Source of the DNA: Oceanirhabdus seepicola
GTDB taxonomy: Bacteria > Bacillota > Clostridia > Clostridiales > Clostridiaceae
NCBI RefSeq assembly: GCF_023684385.1
Contig: NZ_JAGSOJ010000006.1
Span: 62,001 to 126,000 of the forward strand
Length of the DNA stretch: 64,000 bases
Direction: 5' to 3'
Position numbers and translations under genes: made by a program. Positions 12,684 through 57,722 of this stretch are shown here, piece after piece (positions within the stretch are counted from its first letter, which is position 1; each line of letters opens with the position of its first letter). The notes below the pieces were generated by a model that saw nothing but the letters and a program-made list of their open reading frames with translations, did not search any database and was not told where the DNA came from.

Positions 12684-13106
12684 AAATGGAGAATTGAGAA
12701 TGTATAATCAAGATTCAATCAGTTAGTTAAATTTATTGAGAATAAGAGATTTGCACACATGTGAATGTATTAGTTAGCTGTAATACTTTGATGGCTATTG
12801 GTAAAGTAATGAAACTCAAAAGCATTAATCATATAACTTTTTAATATAGTTTCTAAACATAGACTTAAATAAAAGGAATGAAACTTTCTTGGTTTAAGAA
12901 AATAAAAATGTAGTTTCTGACTAATATCAGAAACTACATTTTTTTAGTAACAAAATATTTTTCTCCTTGATACAGATGAAACATTGAATTCTAAATACAA
13001 TATTTTATCATAAGATAAAATGAGTAAAATCTCTTTGTCCTAAAGAACAATAAAATGTAGCTTCTGCCCTAAAGCAGAAGCATCCATTATTCTCCATTGT
13101 CCATTA
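12684..13106. repeat. Family B repeat region (B1)
   Basis: Ends carry inverted GGAGAATTGAGAATG (left) and CATTATTCTCCATTG (right). The conserved core at about 12975-13090 reads as a chain of short palindromes: GAAACATTG, AAATACAATATTTTATC, AAGATAAAATGAGTAAAA, AAAGAACAATAAAATGTAGC and the hairpin GCTTCTGC/GCAGAAGC. The same core occurs at about 46360-46470 and 48465-48580. The left half (12720-12900) is not shared. A further palindrome (GAATGCATCGCATTC) follows the right end. Confidence 0.7.
12904..12947 (+). terminator. Intrinsic terminator after the aminotransferase gene
   Basis: Seventeen-bp perfect stem (arms containing ATGTAGTTTCTGA / TCAGAAACTACAT), 6-nt loop CTAATA, then a run of T. 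It lies 236 nt past the stop codon, inside the family B region; the arm ATGTAGTTTCTG recurs in that family. Confidence 0.7.
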
Positions 13107-42509: not shown

Positions 42510-42755
42510 AGATTAATAATTAAACGATGATAAAGAGAGTAGGTTTATGAAGACAATCAGAGAGAGGTAGCCTTAGGCTGTAAGCTATCTTATGAAACTA
42601 ATAAACTGAAGTTCACTTTGGAGTTCTTGTGATGAATATATTAGTTACAAGCGGCGATGGCCGATAAAACATAGAGTGGGTGTATACATATATATATCAA
42701 CTAGGGTGGTAACGCGGAATATCTTCGTCCCTTTTTAGGGATGGAGTTTTTTTAT
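42510..42755 (+). ncRNA. T-box riboswitch (tRNA-Phe) controlling pheST
   Basis: The T-box core AGGGTGGTAACGCGG is at 42703-42717, followed by terminator stem GTCCCTTTTTAGGGAT with a T run (about 42726-42755). Upstream is a long stem I with an AGTA motif and a specifier loop in which TTC (42612-42614) precedes ACTTTGGAG, the usual position; TTC is a Phe codon. Uncharged tRNA-Phe would stabilise the antiterminator and turn on pheS-pheT. Confidence 0.95.
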
Positions 42756-46243: not shown

Positions 46244-46246
46244 AAG

Positions 46247-46533
46247 CGTAGTTGAGAGTGTAGAGTTGAGAGTGGAGAACGAAGGAGGGTTCTGACCTAG
46301 GTCAGAACCTTTGTTTTATATTGCTAAAGAAACAATATAATGTTACTCGTTTCATTTTAAATGAAACATTGTATCTTAAATACAACATTTTATTCTTAAG
46401 GATTAAATGAGTAAAACCTTATTGTTCTTTAGAATAATAAAATGTAGTTTCTGCTTAAAGAGCAGAAATATCCATCGTTCTCAACTCTACACTCTCAACT
46501 TTCCACTTCTTTTAAAGCATCGCGTGCTTTATT
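46247..46533. repeat. Family B repeat (B2)
   Basis: Inverted ends GTTGAGAGTGTAGAGTTGAG and, at right, CTCAACTCTACACTCTCAAC. The core (about 46350-46470) has the palindromes TTTCATTTTAAATGAAA, TTGTATCTTAAATACAA, TTGTTCTTTAGAATAA and TTTCTGCTTAAAGAGCAGAAA shared with B1 and B3. Between left end and core is a GGTTCTGACC/GGTCAGAACC hairpin near 46288-46312. A GCATCGCGTGC palindrome follows at about 46518. Confidence 0.72.
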
Positions 46534-48360: not shown

Positions 48361-48365
48361 AGAAC

Positions 48366-48613
48366 ATAATGGAGAATTGATAATGTATAATGGATAATGA
48401 TTGACATTTCACTCTGTGAAATTTTAATCCTATTGTTTAAGAAACAATAGGATTTTTCTCGTTTCATTTAGATTGAAACATTGTATGATAAATACAATAT
48501 TTTATCAAAGATAAAATGAGTAAAAACCTGTTGGTCTAAAGAACTATAAGATGTGGCTTCTGCGTAAGTAGAAACATCCATTATTATACATTATCAATTA
48601 TACATTATACAAC
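48366..48613. repeat. Family B repeat (B3)
   Basis: Inverted ends: AATGGAGAATTGATAATGTA at left; TACATTATCAATTATACATT at right. After the left end comes GACATTTCACTCTGTGAAAT (a palindrome) and CCTATTGTTTAAGAAACAATAGG (quoted in parts), then the shared core of TTTCATTT, TTGTAT-AAATACAA, TTTTATC/GATAAAA and TTCTGC pieces. The left 65 bp reappear, inverted, at about 56030-56100 next to a broken esterase. Confidence 0.75.
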
Positions 48614-48670
48614 TCTTTTCGTGGGTGGGTGTGCATTTTTTTTGTATATATGATAAAATATCTTATAACA

Positions 48671-53994: not shown

Positions 53995-55011
53995 ATGAGT
54001 TATAAGGAAACGTTGATGAACGCAAGAACAAACCTCAATGGTTCATGTAAGGTTTGTAGAGAGTGTAATGGTATTGCTTGTGCTGGAGAAGTTCCTGGTA
54101 TGGGCGGAAGAGAAACTGCATCATCATTTACATCAAACCATGAATCTTTAAAGAATATAAAGGTGAATATGAGAACCATACACAATGTGAAGGAACCAAA
54201 TATGAAGAGCAATTTTTTTGGTAAAGATATGGATATTCCTGTATTTGCTGCTCCTGTATCAGGAACAACATTAAATATGGGAGGTAAATATTCTGAAGAA
54301 GAATATATTACATGGGTTATTGAAGGATGTATAAAGAATGGAATATATCCTATGGTTGGAGATACTGCAGTAGATTCTTTCCTTACAACAAATCTAAAAA
54401 TGCTTAAGGAATATAATGGCGATGGTATAGTATTTATAAAACCTTGGGAAAATGAAAATGTCATAAAAAAAATAAAACTTGCTGAGGAGGCAGGAGCTTT
54501 CGCAGTAGGCATGGATATAGATGCATGTGGACTTATTACACTTGCATTGCATGGGAAACCTGTAATGCCAAAAACAGTTGAAGATATAAGAAAAATTGCA
54601 AATTCAACTAAACTTCCTTTCATACTGAAAGGAATAATGACAGTGGATGAGGCATTATTAGCAGTTGAAGCAGGTGTAGATGGAATAGTAGTATCAAATC
54701 ATGGAGGAAGAGTACTTGATCATACTCCAGGAGTAGCAGAAGTATTACCAGCCATTGCAGAAGCTGTTAAAGGGAAAGTTAAAATTTTTGCTGATGGTGG
54801 TATTAGAACTGGAATAGATGTGCTTAAAATGCTAGCATTAGGAGCTGATGGCATTTTAATAGGAAGACCATTCGTATGGGCGTCATTTGGAGGGAAAACA
54901 GAAGGCGTTCAAGAATATATCGACACCTTAAAGAGTGGATTAAAATCAGCTATGATATTAACAGGATGTGCGGATGTTAATGAGGTTGATTCTAGAATAA
55001 TATACAAATAA
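53995..55011 (+). CDS. FMN-dependent alpha-hydroxy-acid oxidising protein
   Basis: 338 residues, TIM barrel. The active-site loop IVVSNHGGRVLDHTPG holds the catalytic His/Arg pair of the lactate/glycolate oxidase family, with phosphate loop FADGGIRTGIDVLKMLALGA. The N-terminus has a clostridial Cys-rich motif (CKVCRECNGIACAGEVPGMGG). The substrate cannot be assigned. AGGGGAGAG precedes the ATG. Last gene of the mutS2 cluster; a hairpin follows. Confidence 0.9.
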   Translation: MSYKETLMNARTNLNGSCKVCRECNGIACAGEVPGMGGRETASSFTSNHESLKNIKVNMRTIHNVKEPNMKSNFFGKDMDIPVFAAPVSGTTLNMGGKYSEEEYITWVIEGCIKNGIYPMVGDTAVDSFLTTNLKMLKEYNGDGIVFIKPWENENVIKKIKLAEEAGAFAVGMDIDACGLITLALHGKPVMPKTVEDIRKIANSTKLPFILKGIMTVDEALLAVEAGVDGIVVSNHGGRVLDHTPGVAEVLPAIAEAVKGKVKIFADGGIRTGIDVLKMLALGADGILIGRPFVWASFGGKTEGVQEYIDTLKSGLKSAMILTGCADVNEVDSRIIYK

Positions 55012-55017
55012 AAACAT

Positions 55018-55058
55018 AGTGGACAGTTGACAGTTGAAAACGTTGTCAATTGTCCACT
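55018..55058 (+). terminator. Hairpin after the FMN enzyme gene
   Basis: AGTGGACAGTTGACA pairs with TGTCAATTGTCCACT (one mismatch), loop of 11 nt, no strong T run. The repetitive make-up resembles the end arms of family B repeats, and a small GCATGCAGCACGTGC palindrome follows at about 55092, as after B1 and B2. Confidence 0.5.
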
Positions 55059-55126
55059 GTCCATTTATTGTAAAGATTTTTAGGGTTTACTGTGCATGCA
55101 GCACGTGCATTTGTTTGCATTTGATT

Positions 55127-55306
55127 CTAATATTTATCTTTTGTTATAATTGGTTTTCCCTCTGAATCTAATAAGACTGTCAATCCACCAGAACTTCCAT
55201 TACTAACATACAGGTAATTTACTCCAGTCTCTTTATCAACTATTACTCTATAACTTTGAAAATTTCCTTGGGTAGATACAACTTCAAATCTTTTGTCTCC
55301 ACTCAT
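55127..55306 (-). CDS. DUF6440-type small protein
   Basis: 59 residues: a small all-beta protein with RFEVVSTQGNFQSYRVIVDK, TGVNYLYVSNGSSGGLTVLLD and a short tail. It matches DUF6440 proteins of unknown function, common in clostridia. The frame is open to 55372, but AGGAGGTAAAATT ahead of ATG 55306 fixes the start. It has its own promoter at 55372-55400. Confidence 0.85.
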   Translation of the reverse strand: MSGDKRFEVVSTQGNFQSYRVIVDKETGVNYLYVSNGSSGGLTVLLDSEGKPIITKDKY

Positions 55307-55446: not shown

Positions 55447-56070
55447 TTACTCCTTTATTAAAAGAGATATTGGTGTATCACATTCTCTCGTTAGATATCT
55501 CAATCCTTTTGCCAAGGTTTCTCTCCAACTTAAGTAGTCATGTCCACCTTGGAATTCTGAGTATTGAACATGGTAACCTTTGGAAAGTAATATATCTCGC
55601 ATATTTTTACTTCCATTAATTATTCTATCCCTTTCTAAAGCTCCAACTTCTAAGTAGAATTTCAGATTTAATTTTTCATGTTCTTGAAAGGATTCAGCCA
55701 TCCAAGTAATACCATTAGATTTATATTTTTTAAGTGGCTTACCAGAATCATAATTTGGATACCACCAATAGGAACCAGATTGGGATAAAACATTTCCGAA
55801 TATATTTGAATGATTTAATCCCATATATGATGCGAATAAACCACCAAGACTTAATCCACTTATTATACAATCCTCAGGTTTATGTGAAATATTATATCGT
55901 TTCCTACACCATGGAATTACTTTATTTACAAAAAAATCAGCAATATTATTATCGCAGGATAATTTATAATTTCTGCAATCCTCACACTCCACAAAAAATG
56001 CAACTATTGGTGGTATTCTTTTTCCAAGGAACAACAAGATTAAAATTTCACAGAGTGAAATGTCCATCAT
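55447..56070 (-). pseudogene. Esterase (enterochelin-esterase-like), N-terminally truncated
   Basis: The frame from about 56028 leftward encodes KRIPPIVAFFVECED, the nucleophile elbow SGLSLGGLFASY, SQSGSYWW and GGHDYLSWRE, the C-terminal two-thirds of an alpha/beta-hydrolase esterase of the IroE/Fes type. The usual N-terminal part (cap or carbohydrate-binding region, R-x-V-x-V-Y-P and YLHDG) is missing. The first ~15 codons (MMDISLCEILILLFL) are translated family B repeat, not esterase. I read it as a broken gene; the Ser and His are still present, so residual activity cannot be excluded. Confidence 0.75.
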
Positions 56071-56100
56071 TCTCTATTCTCCATTTTCCATTTCTTTTAA
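56030..56100 (-). repeat. Family B repeat end fragment (B4)
   Basis: Read on the minus strand, AAATGGAGAATAGAGAATGA, then GACATTTCACTCTGTGAAAT and TTTAATC match the left end of B3 (48366-48430) almost base for base. The match stops where the esterase coding similarity begins. Confidence 0.72.
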
Positions 56101-56213
56101 AGGTTCTCTGTTCTTTATTCTTTTTTCTTTTTGTCTTCTCCCCTCCCCCTAAAGAATGAATATAATCTATAAATAAACAAAAGATATGTATAATAACACT
56201 TTAGGAGCTGAAT

Positions 56214-57722
56214 ATGAATAAAGATTTTAAAATTACAAAGAATCTATCGGAAAATATCGAAAACCTAAAGACTGAGGTTTTTGATAAAAATGGAACAATC
56301 CAATATAGAAAAATTATAAACATAAATTCAAAATTTGAATGTTATGTAATATTCAATGAGGGTATGATCAATGGTAAAGTAATTAATGATAACGTGATTA
56401 AAACATTGATAAATGAAGGAGATATATCACAAGAAAATTTTATGGAGGAGCTGGCATATAGCAAAATTGTTGCTAAGTCCATAAAAATAGAGAAATGTGA
56501 AAAACACATGATTGACAGTGTGCTCAGAGGAGATTCATTAGTACTTTTTGAAGGGGAAAACAGAGCATTAGTAATAGATACAAAGGAATATAGTGGTAGG
56601 AGTATAACAGAACCACAATCGGAAAGCGTTCTTAGAGGACCAAGGGAGGGTTTTACTGAAATTCTCATGGGGAATTTAGAGCTTGTGAGAAGACGAATAA
56701 GTAATCCGGAATTGAAATTTGAAATGATGAAGATAGGAAGACGAAGTGGGACTAAAATTGCTATATGCTATTTAGATGATCTTGTAAACGATACAATTCT
56801 TGAGGAGGTAAAAAAAAGACTCAATAAGATAGATATTGATTATATCTTATCAACTGCCAAAATAATGGAATTTATAGAAGATCACCCAAAGTCAACCTTC
56901 AGAACAATAGGAGTTACAGAGAGACCGGATGTTGTATGTGAAAAAATATTGGATGGGAAATTAGCAATACTATGTGATGGCTCTCCAGTAGCTCTAACTA
57001 TTCCATATATTTTTCATGAAAGTTTTGATTCTAATGAGGATAACTATAACCATTACATATATAGCAGTATAAATAAAATGTTGAGATATTTAGCTTTTTT
57101 TATTGGAAGTAGCACTCCTGCTTTATATGTGGCAGCATGTACATTTCATAGAGAGTTGATACCAACACAACTTGCAATGAGTATATATTTATCTAGAGTA
57201 GGGGTACCTTTTCCAACATTTTTTGAATGTCTTGCAATGTTATTAGTATTTGAGATATTAAGAGAGGCATCGGTACGGTTACCAAAACATGTAGGTTCAG
57301 CAATATCAATTGTAGGAGCATTAGTATTAGGAGATGCTGCTGTAAAGGCAAAATTCGTTAGTGCCCCAATGGTAATAGTTATTGCCCTCACAGAGATATC
57401 AGCACTTGTATTGGCTAATATGCAAGAGGCACTGATCTTCTTAAGATTTTTATTTTTGATTTCCTCATCAATTTTAGGGTTGTATGGATATATATTTTCT
57501 GTAATGGGAGTATTCATACATCTCATGTCCATGAAGAGCTTTGGTATTAATTATATGCTTTATATGGGAAATTTAAAAATGGAAGATTTGGGTCGAACAA
57601 TTTTCAGGGCACCATGGTGGAAATTAAAAAGGCGTACTAAGCAAATCGCAAAAGATAGTATAAAAACATCTAACGATGAAAATTTAGGTGATAATGGTGA
57701 CGATGATGAAGAAAATAATTAA
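56214..57722 (+). CDS. gerKA: Spore germination receptor subunit A (GerKA-like)
   Basis: 502 residues. An N-terminal ~250-residue soluble domain (GDSLVLFEGENRALVIDT, EPQSESVLRGPREGFTE) and a membrane region of about five helices (FIGSSTPALYVAACTFHRELIP onward) are typical of the GerA/GerKA family. It sits in the inner spore membrane and senses germinants with the B and C subunits. TTTAGGAGCTG precedes the ATG. First of a four-gene operon. Confidence 0.94.
   Translation: MNKDFKITKNLSENIENLKTEVFDKNGTIQYRKIININSKFECYVIFNEGMINGKVINDNVIKTLINEGDISQENFMEELAYSKIVAKSIKIEKCEKHMIDSVLRGDSLVLFEGENRALVIDTKEYSGRSITEPQSESVLRGPREGFTEILMGNLELVRRRISNPELKFEMMKIGRRSGTKIAICYLDDLVNDTILEEVKKRLNKIDIDYILSTAKIMEFIEDHPKSTFRTIGVTERPDVVCEKILDGKLAILCDGSPVALTIPYIFHESFDSNEDNYNHYIYSSINKMLRYLAFFIGSSTPALYVAACTFHRELIPTQLAMSIYLSRVGVPFPTFFECLAMLLVFEILREASVRLPKHVGSAISIVGALVLGDAAVKAKFVSAPMVIVIALTEISALVLANMQEALIFLRFLFLISSSILGLYGYIFSVMGVFIHLMSMKSFGINYMLYMGNLKMEDLGRTIFRAPWWKLKRRTKQIAKDSIKTSNDENLGDNGDDDEENN

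Follow-up and report, generated by a model that had tools for sequence, protein, structure and literature searches.

A Fes-like esterase fragment joined in frame to the left end of a dispersed palindromic repeat in Oceanirhabdus seepicola, a probable remnant of a local deletion

In the window, the 64,000-nucleotide stretch of DNA analysed here, which comes from a Clostridium-like marine bacterium, the ORF list gives a single ORF of 207 codons on the minus strand at 55447-56070 (start at 56070), in which 16 codons encoded by the left end of a dispersed repeat (henceforth referred to as family B) are followed by the C-terminal part of a Fes-like esterase. We consider it probable that this arrangement arose when a deletion joined the esterase at about codon 240 to a repeat copy that was already resident, and that the product is most likely a non-functional, recent remnant. 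The ORF would thus represent a gene remnant that has a start codon and a ribosome-binding-like site from a dispersed repeat, and one that annotation by gene callers will present as an ordinary short protein. The original prediction, which had described a direct in-frame run of the repeat's left end into a truncated esterase on the minus strand, was correct on this point, and its estimate that about 15 of the first codons translate repeat DNA was close to the 16 seen here. The join itself, which it had put at about 56028, lies 3-12 bp away at 56025-56016.

The repeat part of the fusion belongs to family-B copy B3 (56020-56092, minus strand), of which only the left end is present: 73 bp that match positions 14-86 of the family model (260 positions, built from 21 complete copies; E = 8e-15) and comprise the tag, the first hairpin and most of the second. 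A query of 141 bp (56020-56160, minus strand) matched at least 40 places in its own genome (40 of 251 candidates were scored), and the best other match among these 40 had 92% identity over 73 bp (E = 1.9e-23). By eye, the fused ORF begins with ATG ATG at 56070, with GGAG, which resembles a ribosome-binding site of the Shine-Dalgarno kind, 8 nt 5' of it, and sigma-70-like sites before the ORF occur at background level (7 found compared to 7.8 expected from shuffling). The frame that is used here, [D/E]ISL[R/C]E..., is shared by 56 left-end copies that have the arm motif, and a stop closes it in 55 of them, many of which read DISLREILILLFLGQ-stop; the window copy is the only one that opens into an esterase. 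In the copy alignment, other family-B copies extend the arm as TTRTTGTTCCTTGGAcAATA and, since they continue through CTTGGA, the codons of the fused ORF belong to the repeat as far as GGA (56025-56023). At the corresponding point, however, L016 (genome G032), the nearest of the full-length homologues, has YGK-E-IPP, so that GGA AAA is possibly esterase and the join can only be placed within 56025-56016, an ambiguity of about 10 bp.

The esterase-derived part (55447-56019, minus strand) matches PF00756 (E = 6e-15, 56.1 bits against a curated cut-off of 22) over columns 91-250 of 251, and thus contains an incomplete catalytic domain, compared to columns 1-250 in the paralogues. It aligns with chain residues 217-392 of the enterochelin esterase 2b20 and retains the motifs GLSLGG and GGHDYLSW, which we take to contain the catalytic Ser and His, respectively. 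The two-domain layout of Fes (PF11806 followed by PF00756; PDB 2b20 and 3mga) is common to the full-length paralogues, and the window copy differs from it in having neither the N-terminal domain nor the first third of the catalytic domain. PF11806, the Fes-type N-terminal domain, is absent from the fused ORF and is seen weakly, below its cut-off of 27.1 bits, in two full-length homologues (20.2 and 26.5 bits). As the IPP motif that opens the esterase part is found at residue 232-251 in the nine full-length homologues considered, which are 405-420 aa long (the tenth, L019, was left out of this count because its ORF starts late), the loss amounts to the first 56-60% of the protein, that is, the part corresponding to PF11806 and the first ~90 columns of PF00756, and not to an N-terminal third as had been proposed.

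The genome contains six other esterases of the family in its 5.3-Mb assembly, all of them full length with open frames of 412-445 codons; in one of the six, the matched stretch runs across a TAG. The original prediction suggested that the missing N-terminal part be sought in this genome; a profile of eight N-terminal halves detected only the six known esterases and no orphan half in the assembly. It had also named relatives with the same short protein as contrary evidence, and none was found among 58 genomes, 24 of which gave some esterase match. Full-length relatives are present in the congener described below and in G032, L019 (G034) has a 330-codon open frame with a late start, L018 (G053) begins at a contig edge, and most of the remaining matches are remote. 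A protein scan of named relatives returned no match for the esterase query and, for the GerA query, Oceanirhabdus sp. W0125-5 only.

This strain (G001, NZ_CP115913.1; henceforth the congener) was the sole congener compared, and its genome is collinear with the window contig, C6, at 2.52-2.74 Mb. The locus is flanked by two syntenic anchors, a gene for an FMN-dependent dehydrogenase on the left (53995-55011, plus strand; 88% DNA identity to the congener) and the gerA gene for a GerA-family germination protein on the right (56214-57722, plus strand; 88% protein identity). Between them, in addition to the fused ORF, are a DUF6440 gene (55127-55306, minus strand; profile match) and, 3' of the FMN-dehydrogenase gene, a terminator-like hairpin (55016-55060, plus strand) that consists of a left and a right tag, as judged by eye, with no core. 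The corresponding interval of the congener contains a 228-aa ORF and a family-B copy, and neither an esterase nor a DUF6440 gene. This copy lies beside gerA at the same place as that of the window and has kept model positions 2-166, compared to positions up to 86 in the window; gene order on the gerA side is the same, with 83-88% collinearity across the outer end of the repeat, and on its other side each lineage has about 1 kb with non-homologous genes. That the two genomes share this copy and its position indicates that the repeat was resident before the lineages split and that its outer junction is ancestral; the inner side is, on this comparison, the one that changed later than the split, in the window's lineage at least. 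In so far as the original prediction placed one end of a break within the repeat, it is upheld by the longer inner side of the congener's copy and the identical gene order towards gerA. A relative with an intact esterase and no repeat had been expected; the congener has, instead, a longer version of the same repeat and no esterase.

In the explanation we favour, the family-B repeat upstream of gerA predates the split of the two Oceanirhabdus lineages and, in that of the window, its inner part was lost from model position ~86 and the esterase joined to it from about codon 240. A single deletion, by illegitimate or short-homology recombination, probably removed the remaining repeat with any spacer and deprived an esterase gene, presumably transcribed away from gerA, of its 5' ~56-60%. 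The join is, by chance, in frame with the short frame of the left arm, the remnant having gained an ATG and a GGAG from the repeat tag, which it may use. This is the simplest account because one event suffices and the orientations fit, the missing part of the repeat facing the missing 5' part of the esterase. It is further favoured by the full length of the six other esterases, to which the hits of the N-terminal profile are confined, and by the congener, which keeps a longer inner repeat, has no esterase and is collinear on the gerA side. None of the genomes compared has an intact esterase at this locus, and we infer a full-length ancestor there. Having lost its entire N-terminal domain as well as the alpha/beta-hydrolase domain's first third, the product would most likely be non-functional. 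Whether homology guided the join was considered for the repeat arm and esterase codons 225-240, with scoring against paralogues only: an in-register stretch ranked 1/1191 and 3/1191 in two of ten homologues, but 341/1197 in the closest homologue and 20-645 in the other seven. A homology-guided join is therefore unsupported by the closest homologue, and we keep it as a weak lead.

Since the slot that runs from the FMN-dehydrogenase gene to the repeat has different genes in the two lineages, gene turnover there is high, and an import into the slot, which we regard as rather unlikely, stays alive as an explanation: the esterase, already truncated, would have been carried in with DUF6440, and the 228-aa gene independently in the congener. 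The different slot genes, each in about 1 kb of non-homologous DNA, are in keeping with this, as are the positions of the 228-aa gene, which is found at 2577717-2578400 in the congener and at C6:212081-212761, about 94 kb from the locus and inverted, in the window contig. The closest DUF6440 copy of the congener (70%) adjoins two tandem full-length esterases at 633-636 kb; at the corresponding position in the window's genome (C5:174 kb) a single esterase stands without DUF6440, a gene that is widespread, occurring in 29 of 96 genomes of the family. Moreover, the closest homologue of the window esterase (55% identity) is from another genus (G032), with which it pairs in the tree (support 96/96), and its grouping there and not with the Oceanirhabdus paralogues means that it could have arrived already cut. 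However, neither a donor fragment nor a source copy turned up, no family-B half borders the 228-aa gene in the window contig (C6:212064), and an esterase that abuts the inner repeat at codon ~240 needs a break inside the gene in any case. The absence of a family-B half beside this C6 copy also led us to reject the idea that the 228-aa gene moved as a clean unit of cargo. The 228-aa gene matches the prokaryotic STING domain below threshold, with 15.1 bits against a cut-off of 27.1.

Like import, a working, domesticated enzyme whose start is supplied by the repeat has to be weighed against the deletion, and we judge it to be quite improbable. The 207-codon frame is intact, with the GGAG 8 nt before its ATG, the Ser and His motifs are retained, the esterase part has no stops, and only one of 27 columns invariant in the other ten homologues is changed; such deviations number 0-2 of 26-28 in nine of these ten; L015, the most divergent, has 11 of 37. 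The tip branch is 0.68 for the window esterase and 0.59 for its sister. Against function are the loss of PF00756 columns 1-90 together with the whole N-terminal domain, the lack of a sigma-70-like site above background before the ORF, and the lack of the same short form in any relative. Such slight decay implies that the event is recent or that the fragment is under some constraint; of the two we prefer a recent event. Assemblies tend to break at repeats, but an assembly error or chimera is scarcely credible here: the join is internal to a single contig (118 kb from the contig start), synteny towards gerA is unbroken, the repeat piece has variants of its own, and no second copy of the esterase piece is present in the genome.

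Returning to the deletion as the preferred explanation, the junction is no proof of a role for family B in rearrangement and looks like the product of an ordinary local deletion. The original prediction had taken it as evidence that family B takes part in genome rearrangement; that inference does not hold for a repeat that was already resident with an ancestral outer junction. The abundance of half-copies speaks for a part of family B in rearrangement, but the synteny data do not indicate that it drives the process. In the one collinear block available (148 kb, C6 96-245 kb), and thus in a small sample, 4 of the 13 large synteny gaps had a family-B copy, compared to 5 of the 26 small ones (Fisher p = 0.45), and we rejected the proposal that family-B copies mark rearrangement points in view of this lack of enrichment. 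Furthermore, the inner ends of half-copies bunch at the centre of the model (left halves end at 127-147 in 7 of 22 cases and right halves start at 119-133 in 9 of 24), and the break in the window copy, at position 86, falls outside this central cluster (~119-147). Among the esterase loci examined, another family-B match was seen in L088 only (model 101-255), some 4 kb away from the cluster of DUF6440 and esterase genes.

Family B as such is of more interest than the single junction, being a dense palindromic repeat whose half-copies bracket genes above chance. We found nine pairs of a left and a right half in the same orientation, within 4 kb and with no family B in between, compared to a mean of 1.16 and a maximum of 5 in 5000 label shuffles; seven of the nine pairs enclose ORFs of at least 60 aa and two enclose none. 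Examples are located at 2446005-2448325, 2525900-2528162, 2831160-2832133, 2819887-2820671 and 2400591-2402191 in the congener and at C7:48034-50083 in the window's genome. By eye, the cargo consists of one or two genes (an acetyltransferase, a sugar-nucleotide pyrophosphorylase, PhnB-like, beta-lactamase-like and other ORFs), and at 2455364-2458707 of the congener a family-B copy is split by about 3.1 kb with transposase-like and integrase-like ORFs. If the half-pair units move, they would constitute a cargo-carrying MITE- or MIC-type repeat in Clostridiaceae. An extension of this idea, which we find doubtful, is that family B serves as a platform for gene exchange in which palindromes are split at their centre by passengers, the slot from the FMN-dehydrogenase gene to gerA being a decayed unit with lineage-specific cargo (esterase and DUF6440 in one lineage, the 228-aa gene in the other).

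Complete family-B elements are ~260 bp long, palindromic with at least five hairpins (DNA fold z -9.25), intergenic and dispersed, and have the features of MITEs in that they are short, non-coding, multi-copy and end in terminal inverted repeats. Counted over 2.19 Mb from both genomes, copies and partial copies total 92 (41 complete, 22 left, 24 right and 5 middle). The congener has a copy at the place that corresponds to the complete copy at 48363-48616 (plus strand) and none at that of the complete copy at 46244-46510 (plus strand). The right half at 12947-13105 (plus strand) of the window is present in the congener as well, where a left half and then a sugar-nucleotide pyrophosphorylase-like gene come before it. 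The adjacent window sequence (12700-12950, C6:74700-74950) is devoid of the 452-aa gene that the congener has between its halves, and a terminator-like hairpin resembling the one 3' of that gene persists, an apparent case of gene loss at a family-B copy. Of 17 copies or parts in the syntenic stretch of the congener, 5 have a partner in C6, 9 do not and 3 could not be judged (two have one flank only and one is the left half of a split copy). In one of the cases of absence the tag hairpin alone is left. Such differences in presence between congeners indicate that family B has been either active or decaying over such a span of time. By eye, eight congener-only sites revealed no clean target-site duplication. 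The complete copy at 2718685-2718929 of the congener corresponds to a tag-tag hairpin without a core at C6:226759-226837, and hence core and tags are separable. In the 33 of 41 complete copies with cuttable tags, left and right tags agree by class (ATG/ATG in 21 and ACG/ACG in 8, with 3 mixed and one unclassed). We rejected the tags as copy-specific barcodes because a copy's own right tag ranked only at a median of 16 of 33, and for this reason tags cannot tell whether split halves come from one element.

A complete element used as query matched in at least 21 of 96 genomes of the family (up to 8 candidates per genome were scored); among the matches listed in the 96, full-length ones occur only in the two Oceanirhabdus genomes, the others being pieces of about 23-70 bp, with at least ten tag-like ones in G066. 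No description of family B was found in a literature search that covered few subscription journals. MITEs and MICs such as MIC231, reportedly a mobile insertion cassette of Bacillus cereus, are like family B short, non-coding, dispersed, bounded by inverted repeats and present or absent between congeners, and MICs, like some family-B copies, comprise two halves with a gene in between, although no family-B half pair was seen to have moved as a whole; for family B, no clean target-site duplication was seen at the eight sites read by eye and, among the Y1 transposases checked, none is tied to it. REPINs with their RAYT share with family B a palindromic, doublet-like and intergenic nature, and Y1 transposase genes are present in both genomes (14 matches). 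Family B differs from them in its length of ~260 bp, its five or more hairpins and its absence within 1.5 kb of Y1 transposase genes (0 of 12 loci examined of the 14 matches). The bcr repeats of B. cereus are described as genus-level, dispersed, intergenic and mobile-DNA-like (PMC6542083), and by description family B is alike in its genus-level intergenic dispersal. Family B has no match in Rfam, a gathering search of the window with which returned only a T-box leader (42518-42735, 128.9 bits). Lastly, the left ends at 2028847, 2145270, 3093011 and 3162298 of the congener share a near-identical 3' sequence after model position ~65, and may represent a sub-family with another core.
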